Part shown: piece after piece, positions 8,401 through 14,961 of the stretch | Numbering within the stretch: the stretch's first letter is position 1 | Layout: each line of letters starts with the position of its first letter | IMG/VR virus record: IMGVR_UViG_3300025674_000459 | Span: 1 to 21,944 of that record | DNA: 21,944 nt | Source of the DNA: a virus | Direction: 5' to 3' (one strand) | The notes under the pieces: model-generated | Told to the model about the DNA's origin: nothing | What the model saw: only the letters and a program-made list of their open reading frames with translations | The model's database searches: none | Made by a program: the position numbers and the translations under genes

Positions 8401-9442
8401 TAAAAATGTAGATGGAACTTCTAAAGCTACAGGTGAAATAATCATGGATGGTTGGCAAAGATGGGGTGGATTAGGACCATTAGACTATTCTAAAAGATAC
8501 ACAGAAGCAGGAGAGGCTGGAGCTGGTCCAATAGCAAGTCTTGCTAAAGGTGTTGGAGGTCCTCTACCTCAAGATATAATTGATGGTATGATTTATAGAA
8601 AAGGCTGGTTAGAAATTGCAGGAACTAATTTGCCTTTTTATTCAGCTTATGATTTACTAGCAGGTGAAGGAACTAAAAAAGAATTACGAAGTAATTTAAG
8701 AGCTATAGATAAACAAATTAGTGGAACTGCAAAAGATGAAGAAGAAGATATATCAATAGTTCCAGCATATGCTAAAGGTGGTATAGTTAAAGATGTACCT
8801 AATGTAAAAGATGAGCCTGATGAAATGCAAAGTAGAGTAACAGGTATGCCTTTTAATAGTACTGCAGACTTTATGCAAGATGCAGAAGATAGAGCTTTGA
8901 AAGGTCAAATGGATAGATTAGGTTTAGCTGAAGGTGGTTTTGTTAGTGAAATTTTACAGCTTATAGCTGCTAAAAGAAAATATAAAGATACAGAGTTTTT
9001 AAAAAAATATGCTGAAGATGTAGCTTGGCAAGAATCTAGAGGAAAAGGACCACAAACTATTCAAGAAGGTAATGGTATAGCAAAAGGAAAATATCAAGTT
9101 GAAGGAAGTTTAGGAAGTAATAGAAACGACACTATTATACAAAGAGCTTTAAATTTTTATGATGAATATCCAGATGCTCCTATAACAGATGAAATAAAAT
9201 TTGCACTGTCTCAAAAGGGTAAAGATTTAGATTTTTCAACTTTATCAGAAGAAACACAAGATGCTTTATTTTATATGGATGCAGAAAGAGGTACTTTACC
9301 ACTTGATAAATTATCAACTGGAGAACTAAGTCATGAATTAGCTTGGATGAATCATTGGAATCAAGGACCCGATGTAAATGTCATGCAAGAAAAATGGCGT
9401 AAAGCACAAAAAGAAAAAGAACTTTATTATAATAATTATTAA
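5477..9442 (+). CDS. Large internal virion protein (T7 gp16-like position and size), possible C-terminal lysozyme-like domain
   Basis: At 1321 residues it is about the size of T7 gp16, the inner-core ejection protein. It begins with an acidic Glu-rich segment (1-30) and a Pro/Thr-rich linker. Gly-rich hydrophobic stretches occur near 239-262 (TAALGGLIGGGLVGG) and 953-968. Much of the middle is helical. Residues about 1112-1156 contain DEPDE, a TGMPF segment and MDRLGLAEGGF, a linker style I recall from marine phage structural proteins. Beyond it, WQESRGKG (Glu1186) followed about 18 residues later by GKYQVE (1204-1209) resembles the catalytic Glu and the following Gly-x-Tyr-Gln region of lysozyme or transglycosylase folds. 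A muralytic role is an inference; no free endolysin was seen in the window. Membrane-active ejection function is likewise inferred from size, hydrophobic segments and position before the holin-like genes. Confidence 0.6.
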   Translation: MKNELQEYLDFLEEEKYLKSQEEEEELVPTEYIQQTQTPETPKVTPLPNSYIQASQTTPTYSLGGKKSLSELEADPEFDKRAARFLEGIGRNENIFEFLRDSDYNLSSAVQRSFEVGKWTEEQKKDYLYLREQFDNAELKGLKERLGFVKDFAIDVVRDPLNIPALLFTIPTMGTSAAGKIAATQAANQGIKQLIKSSLKAAKKPAIYGAAEGMAWAGPHEYFLQSMDVDLGARDEIDMSVVAGTAALGGLIGGGLVGGLSAINSGRYLAKEFKYSNEEAIIKEGKKKSRKQIATEEQVASLRENLNKKSAKSLFGKATTEFVDKAKKSDTLKKLLDNFRYDWDVTIFGPKDIKVRKDSYGLALGRLQGKLLTGMGQALNGLNKVRKSRFNWSGVLDVKDNDQLAYLLRGGKEKTYKGEEIGEDVLEAYEKIKALLEDTFNKGLEVGLFNPLQKIRNYMPRKFKYEAIENNYDDFVDLLVKSGHANPVNDIKQLTTINVSEVVDGVTKTKKVQGTLDGQLGVDMEAFGRDFLKEADNDIVKATRLKAEQIVDDMLEYRWTPFELRSTLKAGNGSSFLQHRAFSKIKDNDLIPFLENDVELVLQDYFTNASQAIERTRFFGRSVEDFRDNYLNKIQAELRANGVSKEDTKEVIERLTLMHGRVTGLDVPQTPKALRGLSDWGRLSQQMAHLPLATVSSITEPLILLSRVGLTETPATAAIIGKSLVAETIKTGQRITQGVQRGLGKKTKNLKDLDDETWSEIYQTGLALEQSVMDRIESLYGEALGSSRAKELQNMFFKTNLLTQWTSAVQLAAFTTGKRLIVRNAEKLSKGGLKAKDKQFLIEQLNDLGIDADEAVNFYKKSLNKDGVYSGRLAKQQEFYDTKLLSGANRFTKEIILNPSTAEANRPLWYSTPAAQMLIQFAGYPTVFNNTVLKRFITDIKDYPGQTAPRIAGTMLLMTSVAMMGNYIRNPEYFDKNVDGTSKATGEIIMDGWQRWGGLGPLDYSKRYTEAGEAGAGPIASLAKGVGGPLPQDIIDGMIYRKGWLEIAGTNLPFYSAYDLLAGEGTKKELRSNLRAIDKQISGTAKDEEEDISIVPAYAKGGIVKDVPNVKDEPDEMQSRVTGMPFNSTADFMQDAEDRALKGQMDRLGLAEGGFVSEILQLIAAKRKYKDTEFLKKYAEDVAWQESRGKGPQTIQEGNGIAKGKYQVEGSLGSNRNDTIIQRALNFYDEYPDAPITDEIKFALSQKGKDLDFSTLSEETQDALFYMDAERGTLPLDKLSTGELSHELAWMNHWNQGPDVNVMQEKWRKAQKEKELYYNNY

Positions 9443-9444
9443 TT

Positions 9445-9888
9445 ATGGGATTTCCTTTTGAAATAGTTACAATGTTAGCTTCCACAGTGCTTGGTGGAGT
9501 TATGAGTATATGGTCTGAAAGTCGTAAGGCTAAAGCAGAAGCTCAGAAACTTCTTATAACTCGTGGTGAGTTTGATATGAAAGCTAAGAAACAATCACTT
9601 GACCATGGATTAAAAGATAAAGGCTTTGCATGGACTAGAAGAATCATAGCACTAACATCAGTATTTGCTATTGTTCTTTTACCAAAACTTGTAGCTGTAT
9701 ATTATCCTGATGTAAGTGTTACTGTAGGATATACACAATGGAATCCCGGCTTTTTATTTTTTAAAGAAGGAAGAGAAGTATTTGATTGGGTAACTTTTCA
9801 AGGTCTTGTAATTACACAATTAGACACTAACTTAGTATCAGCAATTATTGGCATGTACTTTGGTGGTAGTTTAGCAAAAGGAAGATAA
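9445..9888 (+). CDS. Three-transmembrane protein, probable holin
   Basis: A 147-residue protein with three predicted membrane spans: residues 5-23 (VTMLASTVLGGVMSIW), 66-87 and 128-144 (VSAIIGMYFGGSL). A basic, helical cytoplasmic-looking segment lies between spans 1 and 2 (RKAKAEAQK). Size and topology fit the three-span holins seen next to phage and gene-transfer-agent lysis genes. The position after the last virion gene, with its stop overlapping the next start (TAATG), supports a late lysis role. The alternative is a membrane-anchored structural protein. Confidence 0.5.
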   Translation: MGFPFEIVTMLASTVLGGVMSIWSESRKAKAEAQKLLITRGEFDMKAKKQSLDHGLKDKGFAWTRRIIALTSVFAIVLLPKLVAVYYPDVSVTVGYTQWNPGFLFFKEGREVFDWVTFQGLVITQLDTNLVSAIIGMYFGGSLAKGR

Positions 9889-10175
9889 TGGATACTAGAG
9901 ACTTTATGACCATCTTAGAAACTGTAGGGATTCCTGCAGCTTTTGCAGTTGCTGCCGGATGGATGGTTTGGAAACTCTTTAGTGCTTTAATAGCTGATGT
10001 ACATAAAAAGTTAGATACACAACATGGTATGATAGTTGCATTAATAGATAGAGTAAGACAAATGGATAACGATATGATACGTATAGACTCTATGGTGCGT
10101 ACAGCTTTAGGTGTACAAATAGATGTTGATAGATTAGCGAGAGCAGATGGAAAGAAAGACCAAAGAAAAGATTAA
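9888..10175 (+). CDS. Small single-span membrane protein, possible holin partner
   Basis: A 95-residue protein with one membrane span at about residues 13-34 (IPAAFAVAAGWMVWKLF). A polar helical region follows, with a heptad-like MIVALIDRVRQMDNDMIRID segment, and the C-terminus is very basic (ADGKKDQRKD). Such one-span proteins with a coiled-coil tail are often found next to holins. Holin, antiholin or lysis regulator are all possible. Its start overlaps the previous stop by one base. Its last 29 bases overlap the next small gene in another frame. Confidence 0.45.
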   Translation: MDTRDFMTILETVGIPAAFAVAAGWMVWKLFSALIADVHKKLDTQHGMIVALIDRVRQMDNDMIRIDSMVRTALGVQIDVDRLARADGKKDQRKD

Positions 10176-10242
10176 GTTTGAGATACCCGTAATAACTATT
10201 TTTGTATTTCTATTTATTCTTAGTGTATTGGAGCAATTATGA
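10147..10242 (+). CDS. 31-residue membrane peptide coupled to csgF
   Basis: An ATG at 10147 opens a 31-codon frame with a basic N-terminus (MERKTKEKIK) and one hydrophobic span at residues 13-28 (IPVITIFVFLFILSVL). It ends in a TGA that overlaps the csgF ATG (ATGA at 10239). A purine-rich GCGAGAGC lies just before the start. It fills what would otherwise be a 63-base gap in a genome with almost no gaps, and it holds the csgF ribosome site. No homologue is recognised. It could be a functional small membrane protein (lysis or export accessory) or a leader whose translation drives csgF. N-in topology is inferred from the charge bias. Confidence 0.5.
   Translation: MERKTKEKIKFEIPVITIFVFLFILSVLEQL
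10230..10233 (+). promoter_or_regulatory. Ribosome binding site of csgF
   Basis: GGAG five bases before the ATG at 10239 is the clearest Shine-Dalgarno sequence in this stretch and fixes the csgF start. It lies inside the preceding 31-codon frame, so the two genes can be translationally coupled. Confidence 0.6.
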
Positions 10243-10748
10243 ACTTAAATGATTTAGAAAAAGTACATCCTATAAAACAAATTACTGTAGCTTCTATAGT
10301 ACAGGTATTAGTATTTGGATTTATGTTGTTAGCTTTCTGGGGTAACTCTAAAGTCTTTGCAGATGAAATAGTATTTAAATTTAAAAGTCCTAGCTTTAAT
10401 GGTGTTGGTACATCATCACATTACCTAACCATACAGAACCAAGAGTTTAATCGTAAGGCAGCTTTAAAAGCAGAGATAAAAGCGTTACAAGATGAAATAG
10501 AAAGAGACAAAGAAAATACAACACTCGCAAGGTTTATAAGAAACTTAGAGTCTAGAATATATGCACAGTTATCTAGACAGCTTGTAGAGAACTTGTTTGG
10601 TGAAACTCCAAGTGATAGTGGCGTATTAGAATTAGAGGGCAACAGAATAGAATATAGTGTTGTCGATGGTATAATAACTTTAAACATAACGGACAGTGAT
10701 GGGAATACAACGACTATATCTTTACCTATCGGTAGCTTTACTTTCTAG
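10239..10748 (+). CDS. csgF: CsgF-like curli assembly factor
   Basis: A 169-residue protein with a hydrophobic export signal (residues 17-34) and a plausible cleavage after Ala41 (KVFA then DEI). The predicted mature N-terminus (FKFKSPSFNG, 46-55) lines up with the start of E. coli mature CsgF (FQFRNPNFGG), the part that plugs into the CsgG barrel. The Asn17 equivalent is replaced by Thr58 in an ungapped alignment. A helical middle (70-125) leads to a C-terminal β region, IEYSVVDGIITLNITDSDG, which matches E. coli DYIVDIANRDGQLQLNVTD. In known systems CsgF is secreted through CsgG and couples the pore to curlin nucleation at the cell surface. It is followed by csgG, as in csgDEFG, but the gene upstream is not CsgE. 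The call comes from alignment with remembered E. coli sequence. Confidence 0.85.
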   Translation: MNLNDLEKVHPIKQITVASIVQVLVFGFMLLAFWGNSKVFADEIVFKFKSPSFNGVGTSSHYLTIQNQEFNRKAALKAEIKALQDEIERDKENTTLARFIRNLESRIYAQLSRQLVENLFGETPSDSGVLELEGNRIEYSVVDGIITLNITDSDGNTTTISLPIGSFTF

Positions 10749-11553
10749 TTGTGCTGTACTAAATCAGAATCAGGACTTAGTATTAACTCAAGATATAAAG
10801 CCTAGTTCAGTATTAGATTTACAGTCAGAAGAATTAAAGAATTTACCACCGGCTACAGTGATGCCGACTATAGCTATATACCCTAACAGTTTTAAAGACT
10901 TAACAGGTCAGCGTAGAAGTAATAGTTCGTTTGCTTTGTTTAGTACAGCTATTACACAAGCTCCTGAAGCTTTTCTTATAAGAGCTTTTAAACATACAGC
11001 AAATGGAAAGTTTTTTAGAGTTGTAGAAAGAGTAGGCTTGGATGACCTAACAAAAGAAAGACAACTTATTAGAAGTACTCGTAAAGAGTTTAAGGAAGAT
11101 AACAAAATGAAACCTCTGCTATTTGCAGGGTTACTAGTTCAGGGAGGAGTAATTAGTTATGAAGCTAATCTCAGGTCTGGAGGTGCTGGTGCTAGATACC
11201 TAGGGATAGGTAACAGTAAACAGTACAGAGAAGATACGGTTACTATATCATTACGATTAGTATCTGTGTCAACAGGAGAAGTACTGATGGAAACTTTAGT
11301 TTCTAAAAGTATTATATCCACAAGTGTTTCTCAGGATGTATTTCGTTTTATTGAAACTGGCACAGAGCTAGTAGAAATAGAAGGTGGTGTAGCTGAGAAC
11401 GAATCTGTTTCTATAGCTTTGCAAAAGGCAATAGAGACAGGTGTATTAAATATTATAAATATAGGAATAGAGAGAGGCTATTGGAAATATGAAAATATTA
11501 AAATTGATAAGCCTGTTTGTGATGCTGAGTGCATTGCCGACATACGGGGCTGA
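10699..11553 (+). CDS. csgG: CsgG-like outer-membrane curli secretion channel (lipoprotein)
   Basis: A 284-residue protein from the ATG at 10699 (a GTG lies three bases earlier). A lipoprotein signal has the lipobox LLSSC with Cys18; the next residue is Ala, not Asp, which predicts outer-membrane sorting. Family landmarks follow in order: KDLTGQ, FSTA (81-84), VERVGLDDLTKERQLIR, SGGAGARYLGIG (160-171), VSVSTGEVL, VFRFIETG and AIETGVLNIINIGIERGYW. Each has a close counterpart in E. coli CsgG, which is of similar length. CsgG forms a nonameric diffusion channel for unfolded curlins. The three constriction residues of E. coli (Tyr51, Asn55, Phe56) correspond, without gaps, to Ser76, Leu80 and Phe81, so only Phe is kept. 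The 5' end overlaps csgF by 50 bases in another frame. Confidence 0.93.
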   Translation: MGIQRLYLYLSVALLSSCAVLNQNQDLVLTQDIKPSSVLDLQSEELKNLPPATVMPTIAIYPNSFKDLTGQRRSNSSFALFSTAITQAPEAFLIRAFKHTANGKFFRVVERVGLDDLTKERQLIRSTRKEFKEDNKMKPLLFAGLLVQGGVISYEANLRSGGAGARYLGIGNSKQYREDTVTISLRLVSVSTGEVLMETLVSKSIISTSVSQDVFRFIETGTELVEIEGGVAENESVSIALQKAIETGVLNIINIGIERGYWKYENIKIDKPVCDAECIADIRG

Positions 11554-12205
11554 TAACGAAATATATGTTGACCAATCAGGTGCTACAGCTAACATAGATT
11601 TAGAGCAGTTAGGTTCAGGCAATATTATAGGTGGATTACAATCTTCAGCAGGAAGTGTGACTCCATTAGATTTAGACGGTCTTACTATGACTTTAGATAT
11701 AAATCAAATAGGAGATACTAATAAATTCTTAGGTGATATTTATGGTGATTCTATAACAGGATTTTTTGAGTTTGATGGTGATAGTAATACATTTACTATA
11801 CAAGGAGACCCAACAAATACTTTTGGTATTGATAACTCTAATTATAATGTTGACGTTACTGGAAACTCTAACACATTTACCTTAGACCATGGTACAACTG
11901 CACTAGCTGCAACACTAGATTTAGATTGGATTATTCAAGGTGATGATAACACTTTTGATTTCGATATAAATTATGATGGTGCTACTAACTATGTAGATGT
12001 TGATGGAGATGATAACACTGTAACCTTTACAGGTTCAGGATATGCCGGAGGGTATTTTTATCTTGACCAAACAGGAAACAGTAGAACATTCAACATACAA
12101 CAACTGAGTACTCAAGACAATGACTGGCTTAAAATTATATCTAACGGTAATAATGGTACTGTTTGTGTCATTCAAAATGACCAAGGTACAGGCACAAGCT
12201 GCTAA
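11489..12205 (+). CDS. Secreted curlin-like repeat protein, candidate CsgG substrate
   Basis: A 238-residue protein with a clear signal peptide (KILKLISLFVMLSALPTYG, cleavage near 20-21) and a body of about eight β-rich repeats. Units share an alternating hydrophobic strand, then a Gly-[DN]-x-Asn turn and a second strand: DQSGATANI, NQIGDTNKF, FDGDSNTFTI, VTGNSNTFTL, IQGDDNTF, VDGDDNTVTF, DQTGNSRTFNI, SNGNNGTVCVIQ. This follows the curlin pattern (x-Q-x-G-x-x-N) but is far richer in Asp, and several Gln positions are lost. The only cysteines are C226 and C238 at the end. Overlapping the end of csgG by 65 bases, it is the natural candidate cargo of the channel. Whether it acts as CsgA (fibre), CsgB (nucleator) or a non-amyloid β-solenoid is open. 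Confidence 0.7.
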   Translation: MKILKLISLFVMLSALPTYGADNEIYVDQSGATANIDLEQLGSGNIIGGLQSSAGSVTPLDLDGLTMTLDINQIGDTNKFLGDIYGDSITGFFEFDGDSNTFTIQGDPTNTFGIDNSNYNVDVTGNSNTFTLDHGTTALAATLDLDWIIQGDDNTFDFDINYDGATNYVDVDGDDNTVTFTGSGYAGGYFYLDQTGNSRTFNIQQLSTQDNDWLKIISNGNNGTVCVIQNDQGTGTSC

Positions 12206-13229
12206 TATTGGAAACATAACAGAACTTAATGGAGCTGGTAGAGTTGTCAGAGATGATACTTACCAAGCTTCATTAAATTTTGACATAAATAGTTTTGATA
12301 ATGTTCAAACTTCTAACGGAAGATTGGGCATTACTTTTTTAGATGACAGTCAAGTTAGACTTACTGAACATTCTGAATTAATAATAGATGAGTTTATATA
12401 CGACCCCGACCCGTCTAAATCTAAGATGGCACTTCAGTTTGCTAGTGGTACTGCAAGGTTTATTACTGGTAAGTTAGCTACAATAGATAAAGAAAATATA
12501 CTAATACAAACTCCTAGTGCTACGATAGCTATTCGTGGTACAGATTTTACAGTTACTGTAGATGAGTTAGGGAGAAGTTTAGTTATATTATTACCAGACG
12601 ATGACGGTCTTCCAAGTGGAGAGATTGTTGTCGCAACAGCTATGGGACAGGTAACACTTAACAAACCTTACCAAGCTACTACAGTTTCAATGTACGAGAC
12701 TGCACCAACCAAACCCGTTATCCTTGACTTAACTCTTGAGTTAATTGATAACATGTTAATAGTAAATGAACCACAGAAAGTAGAACAAGAAGATGAAGGA
12801 CAAGATGGAGATGGCGTTTCTAATATTCTTGATGTTGACTTCCTTGAGTTCGATGATTTAGAAGTAGACTATCTTGCAGAAGATGAGTTAGAGTTTACAG
12901 AGTTAGATATAAATTATCTTGATGTAAACTTTCTAGAAGATTTACTAAACATCATAGAAGAGGTAAATGAGTTAGACAATACTGAATCACTTTTAAGGAC
13001 TGACATAGATTTAAAAGGAACTCAAGTTGGCTTTGACTCTAACACTCAAATCAACACATTCTTAACTGACAACCTTATAACCTTTTACAAGTCTCTAGAA
13101 GATACTGTAAGACTAGACTTAGATAGGTCTAATGCTTATACAGTTATCATGATTCAAAACGGTAAGAGTACACAGGTCATTGTCAATGGTGGAGGAGACT
13201 CTACTATAAAAATAACGCAAGGAGATTAA
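12120..13229 (+). CDS. Secreted FecR-domain protein with acidic pentad repeat and curlin-like tail
   Basis: A 369-residue protein. The signal peptide (hydrophobic 5-18, likely cleavage after VQAQA near 27) puts it in the periplasm or outside. Residues about 33-145 form a FecR domain, with a GRVVRDDT opening, LDDSQVRLTEHSELIIDEF, an FASGTARFITGKL segment and a closing TPSATIAIRGTDF, the most diagnostic part. A DEGQDGDGVSN stretch (225-235) resembles a Ca2+-binding Asp-rich loop. Residues 239-273 are seven acidic five-residue units with Leu always at position four. The tail (337-369) has MIQNG and IKITQGD, similar to a curlin repeat. The start is embedded 86 bases inside the curlin-like gene and lacks an obvious ribosome site; Met12 (12153) would lose the basic n-region. 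FecR-domain proteins next to CHASE2 cyclases are, from memory, a recurring bacterial pair, which suggests it is the sensor partner of the next gene. Confidence 0.8.
   Translation: MTGLKLYLTVIMVLFVSFKMTKVQAQAANIGNITELNGAGRVVRDDTYQASLNFDINSFDNVQTSNGRLGITFLDDSQVRLTEHSELIIDEFIYDPDPSKSKMALQFASGTARFITGKLATIDKENILIQTPSATIAIRGTDFTVTVDELGRSLVILLPDDDGLPSGEIVVATAMGQVTLNKPYQATTVSMYETAPTKPVILDLTLELIDNMLIVNEPQKVEQEDEGQDGDGVSNILDVDFLEFDDLEVDYLAEDELEFTELDINYLDVNFLEDLLNIIEEVNELDNTESLLRTDIDLKGTQVGFDSNTQINTFLTDNLITFYKSLEDTVRLDLDRSNAYTVIMIQNGKSTQVIVNGGGDSTIKITQGD
13219..13224 (+). promoter_or_regulatory. Ribosome binding site of the cyclase gene
   Basis: AAGGAG six bases before the ATG at 13231, the strongest Shine-Dalgarno match in the cassette. 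It overlaps the last codons of the FecR-domain gene and supports efficient translation of the cyclase. Confidence 0.7.
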
Positions 13230-13230
13230 C

Positions 13231-14961
13231 ATGAAGTGGTCTACAATTCTTTTAGGACTATTAACTTTACCTTTGCTTTTTAATGCTGTTCCACTTGAAG
13301 TACTAAGACTAAAAACTTTTGACGCTTTAGTAGCTCAACAAGAACCAACCGGACATTTTAAAATACTTAATATTACTGAAGAAGACCTAGATAAAATGGG
13401 AGGATATCCTTTACCTCGTCAAGACTTAGCAAGTATTCATAAAAAAATTATGGATGCTGGTGCTTATGGAGTTGGATGGGTTATGTTATTTCCACATGCA
13501 GATAGACTAGGTGGTGATGATGAGTTTGCTTTAGAGCTTTCTAAGTCTGCAAGTGTTATAGCTATGCCTGAAATATCTAATGGAGTTTATCCTGCTACAC
13601 ATGGTACAGTTATAAAAGGACCAATAGTATCCTTACCAAAAGCTCAAGGATTTTTAGAAAACATAGAACCTTTAAAACAGTCAGCTAGTCAAGGTGCTAT
13701 CTCTGCACCAGTTGATGTAGATAATTTAGTAAGGCGTATACCTTTACTACAACAAACAGATAATGGGTGGGTTGCTTCGTTTGGAACAGAAGTTTTAAAA
13801 ATACTAGGAGGTGGTCGTACTTATCAGATTGTCACAAATCTGAATGGAATAGAACAGATTAGAGTTAGAGGTATTCCACCCGTTTCAACAGATAGTTTAG
13901 GTCGTAAGTGGATTAGTTGGGTAGACACTCCACAAACTACACTAGCTGAGATGGATGTTGAATCTTCTTTTGTGTTTGTAGGATTTACAGCCAAGGGAAT
14001 ATCACCACAAGTTGCAACACCTGTAGGTTTATTAGAGCCTCACAAAATTCAAGCTGCGTTATCTGAAAGCATGTTAATGGATACGCCACAGATACCTGAC
14101 TATAGATTGTTTGTAGAACTATTATTATTATGTGTCTCAGGTTTACTGACAGCCTTTCTAATAGCACGATTAGGTATCACATGGGGTATTGTATCAGTTG
14201 GTGGTTTGATGTCAGGAGTAGGCTACTTTGGATATAGTGTCATACAAAATAACATACTCATAGATGTGACTTGGAGTATGACAAGTATGACACTTATTGC
14301 CACGTTACAATTCTACCTAAACTTTAGAAAGCAATACAAGCTTAGACAACAAATTAAAAAACAATTTGAACATTACCTTGACCCAAGACAAGTCAAACAA
14401 CTCCAAGATAATCCGGAGCTTCTGAAGTTAGGCGGAGATAGACGAAGATGTACGTTTTTATTTACAGATGTTCGTGGCTTCACAAGCTTGTCAGAAAAAC
14501 TAGAGCCTGAACAAGTAACAGAGATTATGAATAAGGCACTAACTATTCAAGCTGATGCAGTTAAAGAATGTGGAGGGATGGTAGATAAATATATTGGTGA
14601 TGCGATGATGGCTATCTTTAATGCACCTATAGACTTAAATGACCATGAGCAAAAAGCTGTTGAATCAGCTGTGAAAATACACCAACGTATGGCTGAAGCC
14701 GACTTAGGGATAGAGATAGGTATAGGGATAAATACAGGAGAGGCAGTTGTAGGTAATATGGGAAGCGATTCACGATTTGATTACTCGGCAATAGGTGATG
14801 CAGTAAACCTAGCCGCAAGATTGGAAAGTTCTACTAAAGAAGTTGGTAAAGATATAGTCATAGGTCATGAAACAATTAAGAGTTACACAGGAAACTATGC
14901 AACTCTTGAGCCAATTTATGTAAAAGGAAAAGAAAAACCTATAAAAATTTACACAATTTAG
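13231..14961 (+). CDS. CHASE2-domain membrane adenylate cyclase (class III)
   Basis: A 576-residue sensor enzyme. An N-terminal membrane anchor (3-20) is followed by a CHASE2 region (about 28-285, with FDALV at its start), which should face the periplasm. Three membrane spans follow (about 291-312, 315-337, 342-363), the usual CHASE2 architecture, then a linker and a class III cyclase domain (about 405-576). All catalytic residues are visible: metal Asp413 in FTDVRGFTSL and Asp457 in DKYIGDAMMA, adenine-selecting Lys453 and Asp523 (SAIGDAVNLAARLE), and transition-state Asn526 and Arg530. Lys/Asp rather than Glu/Cys predicts ATP to cAMP rather than GTP to cGMP. It is the last gene of the plus-strand cassette, one base after the FecR-domain gene. 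The family assignment is secure; its signal and its role in infection are inferred. Confidence 0.93.
   Translation: MKWSTILLGLLTLPLLFNAVPLEVLRLKTFDALVAQQEPTGHFKILNITEEDLDKMGGYPLPRQDLASIHKKIMDAGAYGVGWVMLFPHADRLGGDDEFALELSKSASVIAMPEISNGVYPATHGTVIKGPIVSLPKAQGFLENIEPLKQSASQGAISAPVDVDNLVRRIPLLQQTDNGWVASFGTEVLKILGGGRTYQIVTNLNGIEQIRVRGIPPVSTDSLGRKWISWVDTPQTTLAEMDVESSFVFVGFTAKGISPQVATPVGLLEPHKIQAALSESMLMDTPQIPDYRLFVELLLLCVSGLLTAFLIARLGITWGIVSVGGLMSGVGYFGYSVIQNNILIDVTWSMTSMTLIATLQFYLNFRKQYKLRQQIKKQFEHYLDPRQVKQLQDNPELLKLGGDRRRCTFLFTDVRGFTSLSEKLEPEQVTEIMNKALTIQADAVKECGGMVDKYIGDAMMAIFNAPIDLNDHEQKAVESAVKIHQRMAEADLGIEIGIGINTGEAVVGNMGSDSRFDYSAIGDAVNLAARLESSTKEVGKDIVIGHETIKSYTGNYATLEPIYVKGKEKPIKIYTI

Follow-up and report, generated by a model that had tools for sequence, protein, structure and literature searches.

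Why would a phage carry the genes of an amyloid secretion system, and why would it keep them beside a FecR-domain protein and a receptor predicted to make cyclic AMP (cAMP)? The question is raised by a stretch of 21,944 nucleotides of viral DNA, hereafter the window, which is the entire IMG/VR record IMGVR_UViG_3300025674_000459, a 21.9-kb fragment. The original prediction for this stretch, made from the sequence alone, described six tightly packed genes at positions 10147-14961, encoding a small membrane peptide, CsgF, CsgG, a curlin-like protein, a FecR protein, and a CHASE2 cyclase; the open reading frames (ORFs) and Pfam searches agree, with adjacent ORFs of the block overlapping or almost abutting. 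We find that the module is real, conserved, and previously described. What the window adds is a new lineage of carriers, a probable correction to an annotation, and, in the C-terminal tail of the FecR protein, a motif that can be tested. In our judgment, the block is best explained as a type VIII (curli) secretion module linked to a cyclase that acts as a periplasmic sensor, at a probability just short of even.

Gene content and recurrence of the block

All of the genes lie on the + strand. The curli part consists of CsgF (10239..10748; Pfam CsgF, E=1.6e-17), the outer-membrane curli pore CsgG with its lipoprotein signal SSCAVL (10696..11553; Pfam, 1.1e-48), and a curlin-like secreted beta-solenoid protein that is a candidate fibre subunit (11489..12205). 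Next come a secreted FecR-domain protein (12120..13229; Pfam FecR, 4.3e-11) and a CHASE2 receptor-type class III adenylate cyclase (13231..14961; Pfam CHASE2, 4.1e-25, and Guanylate_cyc, 1.1e-19). Among solved CsgG chains, the best match of the CsgG profile is 3x2r (1.7e-63), and 53/57 distinct CsgG proteins have a lipobox pattern. PHROGs 35372, 20175, 37870, and 35576 match four of the block proteins, and PHROG gives the function of all four as unknown.

We compared the window with two samples of csgG loci from IMG/VR, a near set (the best 80 of 442 loci close to the window) and a distant set (the best 80 of at least 565 loci), counting for each gene only the loci with enough flank for the gene in question and scoring presence in the distant set by where a gene lies with respect to csgG, without requiring a strict order. 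The near set contains csgF in 77/77 loci, the curlin gene in 63/63, fecR in 51/51, and the cyclase gene in 34/34; the distant set contains them in 74/74, 66/66, 51/51, and 30/33, giving 151/151, 129/129, 102/102, and 64/67 over the pooled 160 loci. The joint recurrence of csgG, fecR, and the CHASE2 cyclase gene in phage contigs, proposed as a check on the block, is thus observed, and the genes do not occur singly and at random but as a block with the same phage neighbors. The records of the cultured phages HTVC008M and Melnitz contain the same block, and three loci (L210, L211, and L213) share exact 300-base stretches with HTVC008M (L001). Gene identity, fixed arrangement, and co-inheritance across phage lineages can be read from the DNA itself, as can the FecR tail motif and the cyclase residues described below.

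The FecR protein and its C-terminal tail

The FecR protein consists of a signal peptide (assigned by eye), the FecR domain, an acidic linker, and a C-terminal beta domain with a curlin-like strand. Pfam finds the FecR domain in 43/43 relatives at E<=1, and the predicted model (mean pLDDT 70 overall, with an N-terminal helix at residues 4-19 and beta structure from about residue 29) matches the PupR signalling domain 6ovk (Z 16.1, rmsd 2.4, 139 residues aligned). The phage protein therefore has the periplasmic FecR fold in common with the FecR/PupR anti-sigma regulators but differs from them in lacking their N-terminal cytoplasmic anti-sigma part and in possessing the curlin-like C-terminal strand. 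Given the size of a cytoplasmic anti-sigma domain, there is no N-terminal room for one, and we reject canonical FecR anti-sigma signalling on this architecture. The linker (12822-12989, FecR residues ~235-290) has a five-residue rhythm (LDVDF LEFDD LEVDY ...) and low model confidence.

The C-terminal stretch (residues 340-369, 13137..13226, + strand), which includes Q346 and a final strand running to Q367, is conserved as strongly as the FecR core. Among 43 aligned FecRs, 29-98% identical to that of the window, Q367 is invariant, the only invariant column past residue 211, and I363 and I365 are at least 90% conserved. The chain ends in [ILVF]x[ILVF]xQ followed by at most four residues in 51/51 near-set FecRs, including those of HTVC008M and Melnitz, and in 63/63 complete distant-set FecRs (53 of them distinct); one protein stands in both counts, the FecR of L210 being that of HTVC008M. 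The second count was not blind, as a narrow pattern was written after the near set had been seen and was widened, in its residues and to four or fewer positions after the glutamine, after the distant tails had been seen; the distant-set controls were run with the same wide pattern.

These controls were the + strand ORFs from the same loci. In the near set, 2/596 other ORFs have the narrow motif, and these two are the HTVC008M and Melnitz curlins. The wide motif, sought in the distant set, occurs in 62/95 curlin-profile ORFs, compared with 0/79 csgG, 0/76 csgF, 0/57 mem95 (a small upstream gene described below), and 1/37 cyclase ORFs, and in 15/487 other ORFs. Of those 15, 11 are probably unrecognized second curlins, of which ten lie where fecR ends or just past it and the eleventh, in L272, lies some 700 bases downstream; the remaining 4/487 look unrelated. 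None of nine bacterial FecR relatives with a complete C-terminal end carries the motif (0/9, out of 30 fetched, of which 21 run off the locus), nor do any of seven bacterial FecRs found beside cyclase relatives, one of which (L205) is a short protein. The relation between tail and curlin rests on motif conservation, position, and these controls, and stops short of proven homology. The tail may connect the fibre to the sensor; the data would equally suit an assembly or sorting signal common to both proteins.

The curlin-like protein

A curlin-like substrate, also part of the original prediction, is less secure for the window protein taken alone and holds for its family. By itself the protein matches only DUF3060 in Pfam (5.9e-5) and has no Curlin_rpt match, while Curlin_rpt matches 13/37 of its relatives at E<=0.01, and the family alignment has glutamine, glycine, and asparagine columns that are invariant or nearly so. 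A Q-x-G-x-x-N-type motif, a pattern composed after inspecting the sequence, occurs in six copies in the window protein against a mean of 0.64 in shuffled sequences, with 0/2000 shuffles reaching as many. Structure prediction gives a regular beta-solenoid (pLDDT 84, pTM 0.81). The structural matches of this model, headed by SufB/SufD, are mostly generic beta-solenoids and include the E. coli CsgA fibril (8enq; Z 12.0, rmsd 8.7, 110 aligned); Foldseek returned no match at E<=0.001. The likeness to CsgA accordingly draws more on the sequence repeats than on the fold.

The cyclase

In the window cyclase, D413, K453, D457, D517, N526, and R530 can be read from an alignment and a pattern check, and we take these to be the residues with metal, substrate, and transition-state roles. 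The catalytic residues thus appear intact, and cAMP production is predicted. Among 73 distinct phage cyclases, 63 have the lysine and the Asp/Asn pair, 3 are not resolved by the pattern, and 7 lack the usual Asp/Asn pair. Those without the substrate aspartate and transition-state asparagine are the cyclases of L002 (Melnitz, 8917-10968), L248, L253, L255, L256, L276, and L280, which are perhaps inactive or altered. Two cyclases from the window's lineage (L056:8513-10312 and L063:12533-14329) pair an HTVC008M-like catalytic half with a window-like CHASE2 domain, a pattern that suggests recombination within the gene.

The carrier phage

The window is best assigned to the HTVC103P-type pelagiphages. 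Its PolA is closest to those of HTVC103P, HTVC104P, and HTVC115P, at about 50% identity (50.6% to HTVC103P), and four HTVC103P proteins match the window; the portal and capsid evidence for this assignment comes from a relative, the 49.9-kb contig G002, whose matches to HTVC103P are portal 59%, capsid 50%, PolA 51%, primase 47%, and a 147-amino-acid membrane protein (mem147) 62% (gp50). No match of the window DNA to named phages was found by megablast. We considered and rejected an HTVC023P-type assignment, as it had a single 84-bit hit in its favor and the layout of HTVC023P differs; the first 50 kb of the HTVC023P record, which is 60.9 kb in all, include no annotated ribonucleotide reductase (RNR). 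HTVC103P infects Pelagibacter HTCC7211, and the host of the window phage is therefore probably SAR11. The description of HTVC103P-type phages reports morphogenesis genes like those of HMO-2011, and its main text does not contain the words 'curli' or 'csgG' (PMC8528129).

The block also occurs on a different phage backbone. The 57.4-kb contig G006, which bears it and was compared with the reference phages as G002 was, matches HTVC023P (capsid 63%, terminase 50%); against the HTVC103P set it has nothing beyond a 20% primase match. The CsgG proteins of HTVC023P-type loci are about 80-82% identical to that of the window, and in a CsgG tree 27 HTVC103P-type rows, labeled by their nrdB neighbor, form a single clade (100/100) that joins 7 HTVC023P-type rows at 99/93. 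Automatic lineage labels drawn from mixed markers were set aside, as they seemed unreliable for short loci. Because the CsgG proteins are similar and joined in the tree, yet the backbone genes match different reference phages, the sequences indicate that the block has been transferred between backbones.

Flanks, upstream genes, and layout

The block lies between mem147 and convergent RNR and replication genes, with nrdB, nrdA, and PolA on its 3' side; HTVC103P has four small hypothetical genes in this position. The mem147 gene (9445-9888) has an HTVC103P homologue and looks like a backbone gene, unlike the adjoining mem95 (9888..10175, + strand), which encodes a 95-amino-acid protein with one predicted N-terminal membrane segment (PHROG 18771). 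The original prediction had placed the block between putative lysis genes and a convergent replication operon; the replication side stands, whereas the supposed lysis gene at 9888-10175 is mem95, a member of the module. It was found 5' of csgF in 73/73 near-set and 50/63 distant-set loci with enough flank, going undetected in 13/63 of the latter. Among named phages, only six records (HTVC008M twice and four Melnitz variants) carry mem95, in two places each, and these are the records that carry csgG, fecR, and the cyclase gene.

A histidine kinase (HK) has been reported upstream of csgF in pelagiphages (Wittmers et al., 2022; PMC9599517), and we reject one for the phages tested: a Pfam scan of 10 mem95 members at E<=1 found no kinase family, and HATPase_c is absent from nine phage records, HTVC008M and Melnitz included, with 14/14 control genomes positive. 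Since the two places per named-phage record match 'HK, sometimes two', mem95 is probably the HK of that study. The missing kinase may be a matter of naming, and the window stays within the module.

The next ORF (10147..10242, + strand), known from the ORF list, encodes a 31-amino-acid hydrophobic peptide; 30/80 near-set loci have a similar ORF, which in six cases is contained in a longer ORF of CsgF size. The window CsgF begins with ~40 residues (10239-10360) that resemble a separate small membrane-peptide ORF of 38 related loci, in which the CsgF N-terminus is different; by a simple pattern, the fused form is found in the window and 15 other loci. A scan of 10 window proteins, to which the search was confined, found no CsgE gate, CsgC, or CsgD. 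Between 9300 and 15400 there are 24 promoter-like sites, compared with 25.1 in shuffled sequences, and 4 terminator-like sites, compared with 2.8 (sd 1.6), none of them on the + strand. These counts are not clearly above those of shuffles and so make no case for a single transcript.

Two further observations lie outside the block. Positions 1-2352 of the window hold an open-ended 783-amino-acid protein, rich in glutamine, asparagine, and alanine, with a long irregular ANLxxxNQ-like repeat, perhaps a virion protein. An unannotated 1.5-kb 'Salmonella phage' record (OR851715.1) has a CsgG match at 39.8% and may be a host csgG.

Comparison with described systems

The original prediction held that the full set was undescribed, which the literature contradicts. 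In the passages of Wittmers et al. (2022; PMC9599517) that deal with it, a module of HK, CsgF, CsgG, CsgA/B, FecR, often another CsgA/B, and adenylate cyclase is reported from nine HTVC023P-type genomes and from myoviruses (pelagimyophages), with expression in metatranscriptomes, transfer between viral families, Alphaproteobacteria as the closest bacterial relatives, and no CsgE gate, CsgC, or CsgD. The window has the same genes in the same order, also in a pelagiphage; it differs in its carrier, which is HTVC103P-type and neither HTVC023P-type nor a myovirus, in having no second curlin between fecR and the cyclase gene, and in its upstream gene, which has no kinase domain in the phages tested. 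HTVC103-type phages are named once in that paper, among the isolates of a PolA tree, its main text does not use the terms 'C-terminal' or 'transmembrane', and the passages concerned make no mention of a FecR tail. In the open-access literature searched, HTVC103 and curli appear together only there, and the papers that mention both FecR and curlin do not, to judge by their titles, deal with phages. The HTVC103P-type carrier, mem95 without a kinase domain, and the FecR tail therefore seem to be new, as far as that literature goes.

The cultured myoviruses HTVC008M and Melnitz (141-147 kb) have the order csgF-csgG-curlin-fecR-curlin-cyclase with two mem95 copies upstream. They differ from the window in their second curlin-like gene and in a CsgG only 44-47% identical, and the Melnitz cyclase differs from that of the window in lacking the usual Asp/Asn pair. 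A partial parallel is the BiofilmReg operon of Burkholderia contaminans, in which, as far as the passages on it go, a signal-peptide FecR likewise stands beside a CHASE2 receptor in a biofilm-linked setting; there, CHASE2 is on a histidine kinase accompanied by a response regulator, the FecR carries LysM, and the four-gene operon has no curli genes (PMC5192318).

Bacterial curli operons (of Halomonas, Vibrio, Pseudoalteromonas, and others, and E. coli for the CsgG structures) share CsgG, CsgF, and the curlin repeats with the phage block. We sampled the best 80 of 322 bacterial csgG loci. By title, most come from Gammaproteobacteria or Bacteroidota and none from a named Alphaproteobacterium, and some have short flanks. 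These loci contain csgF in 58 cases and curlin in 26, but differ from the phage block in having no FecR, cyclase, or mem95 profile match within up to 10 kb (0/80), in a sample that hardly includes Alphaproteobacteria. Whole-cyclase relatives are present in 237/398 genomes of the bacterial phylum sampled (E<=1e-20; CHASE2 not necessarily in each), and in 7 of the 30 best bacterial loci, examined with flanks of 1.2-1.5 kb, a FecR-profile gene adjoins the CHASE2-cyclase relative on the opposite strand; no curli genes were found within the short flanks of the bacterial FecR and cyclase-relative loci. We infer from these arrangements that the phage block joins a curli operon to a FecR/CHASE2 sensor pair that bacteria have separately.

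Discussion

The secretion-and-sensor reading amounts to an export-and-sense circuit, which we put forward as a hypothesis with indirect support from the FecR tail and the bacterial FecR/CHASE2 neighbors. Pore and fibre assembly, docking of the tail, contact between FecR and CHASE2, and the direction of signalling are all steps that we infer. During infection, CsgG with CsgF would form a pore in the host outer membrane, through which the curlin-like protein would exit, to assemble at the cell surface as a beta-solenoid fibre. Once exported to the periplasm, the FecR protein would dock on curlin through its curlin-like C-terminal strand, unless that strand is instead attracted to the pore, and would contact the CHASE2 domain of the cyclase through its FecR domain. 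The cyclase would in this way turn the state of fibre export into a cytoplasmic cAMP signal. The phage could benefit through cell aggregation, superinfection blocking, or lysis control. A more specific form of this proposal is that FecR is a fibre-coupled sensor whose built-in curlin strand joins, caps, or is exported with the phage amyloid, the state of fibre or pore being read mechanically and passed to CHASE2 and cAMP; we advance this form tentatively, as a possibility that invites doubt.

Several observations count against the circuit. The loci are not independent, since 102 near-set pairs and 24 distant-set pairs share exact 300-base stretches, although in sampling no such stretch was common to the two sets. 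Three of the 33 distant loci have no cyclase gene, and the seven cyclases without the usual Asp/Asn pair include that of Melnitz. An hhalign comparison of the FecR tail with the curlin profile was not significant (E=0.2, 11 columns), Curlin_rpt was not found in 43 FecR members at E up to 1, and the window curlin carries the tail motif nine residues before its end and not at the terminus. CsgF matched none of the solved chains of CsgF at E<=0.01. Nine phage contigs, possibly incomplete, yielded no cNMP-binding protein, so a host protein may be needed to read the cAMP; a 16S probe pattern meant to pick out SAR11 genomes, in which a receptor might be sought, matched 0/398 genomes. Finally, cultures infected with Melnitz are reported not to clump (Buchholz et al., 2022; PMC9004378).

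The alternative that survives best is that FecR is a structural anchor, a periplasmic retention piece and not a reader of signals, with the tail capping or anchoring the fibre and the cyclase acting as a separate regulator. The strong conservation of the tail fits this, as does a match of FecR residues 27-121 to the structure 5ix9, which is titled 'Cell surface anchoring domain' and which we take to be a Marinomonas adhesin (Z 7.0, 72 aligned, 24% identity), although a Z of 7 can reflect merely a common arrangement. Half of the bacterial FecR loci fetched (15/30) also have the domain in an open frame of more than 1000 amino acids, taken here as large adhesins. Yet the cyclase accompanies fecR in nearly all scorable loci, and bacterial FecR genes lie beside CHASE2-cyclase relatives with no curli gene found in the short flanks, which favors a sensing partnership. 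We regard the anchor as unlikely.

A second alternative is that CsgG serves as an open pore and not for fibre export, whether for uptake of larger molecules, a possibility raised alongside 'sibling capture' in the relevant passages of Zaragoza-Solas et al. (2020; PMC7029224), or for depolarization and lysis timing, as proposed in those of Buchholz et al. (2022; PMC9004378). The lack of clumping in Melnitz cultures, the absence of CsgE from the 10 window proteins scanned, and the small membrane proteins upstream would all suit an open pore. A bare pore would not need a curlin-like gene, however, and one follows csgG at every locus with enough flank. The passages in which Melnitz is said to have no csgA/B fibre genes (PMC9004378) conflict with its record, where two genes are annotated 'curlin associated repeat protein' (MZ577097.1, L002, 6107-8901). 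We consider the open pore quite improbable. A chimera, with a host operon fused to phage DNA during assembly, or other contamination, is contradicted by recurrence, had nothing found in its favor, and has a vanishingly small probability, given the same phage neighbors around the block in many contigs, its presence in the records of cultured HTVC008M and Melnitz, and the 0/80 sampled bacterial csgG loci with fecR or the cyclase gene.

A block of six to eight genes kept in at least three phage lineages of highly abundant ocean bacteria must confer a benefit, although we came across no published account of a fibre. If the 'histidine kinase' proves to be a small membrane protein in the published genomes as well, a misleading part would leave the published model. 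The FecR tail supplies a definite site, open to mutation, for asking whether the cyclase reads the fibre. If FecR is indeed a fibre-coupled sensor, these phages would encode a circuit leading from an amyloid to a second messenger, and [ILVF]x[ILVF]xQ strands at the C-terminus would serve as a tag shared by the clients of this secretion system.

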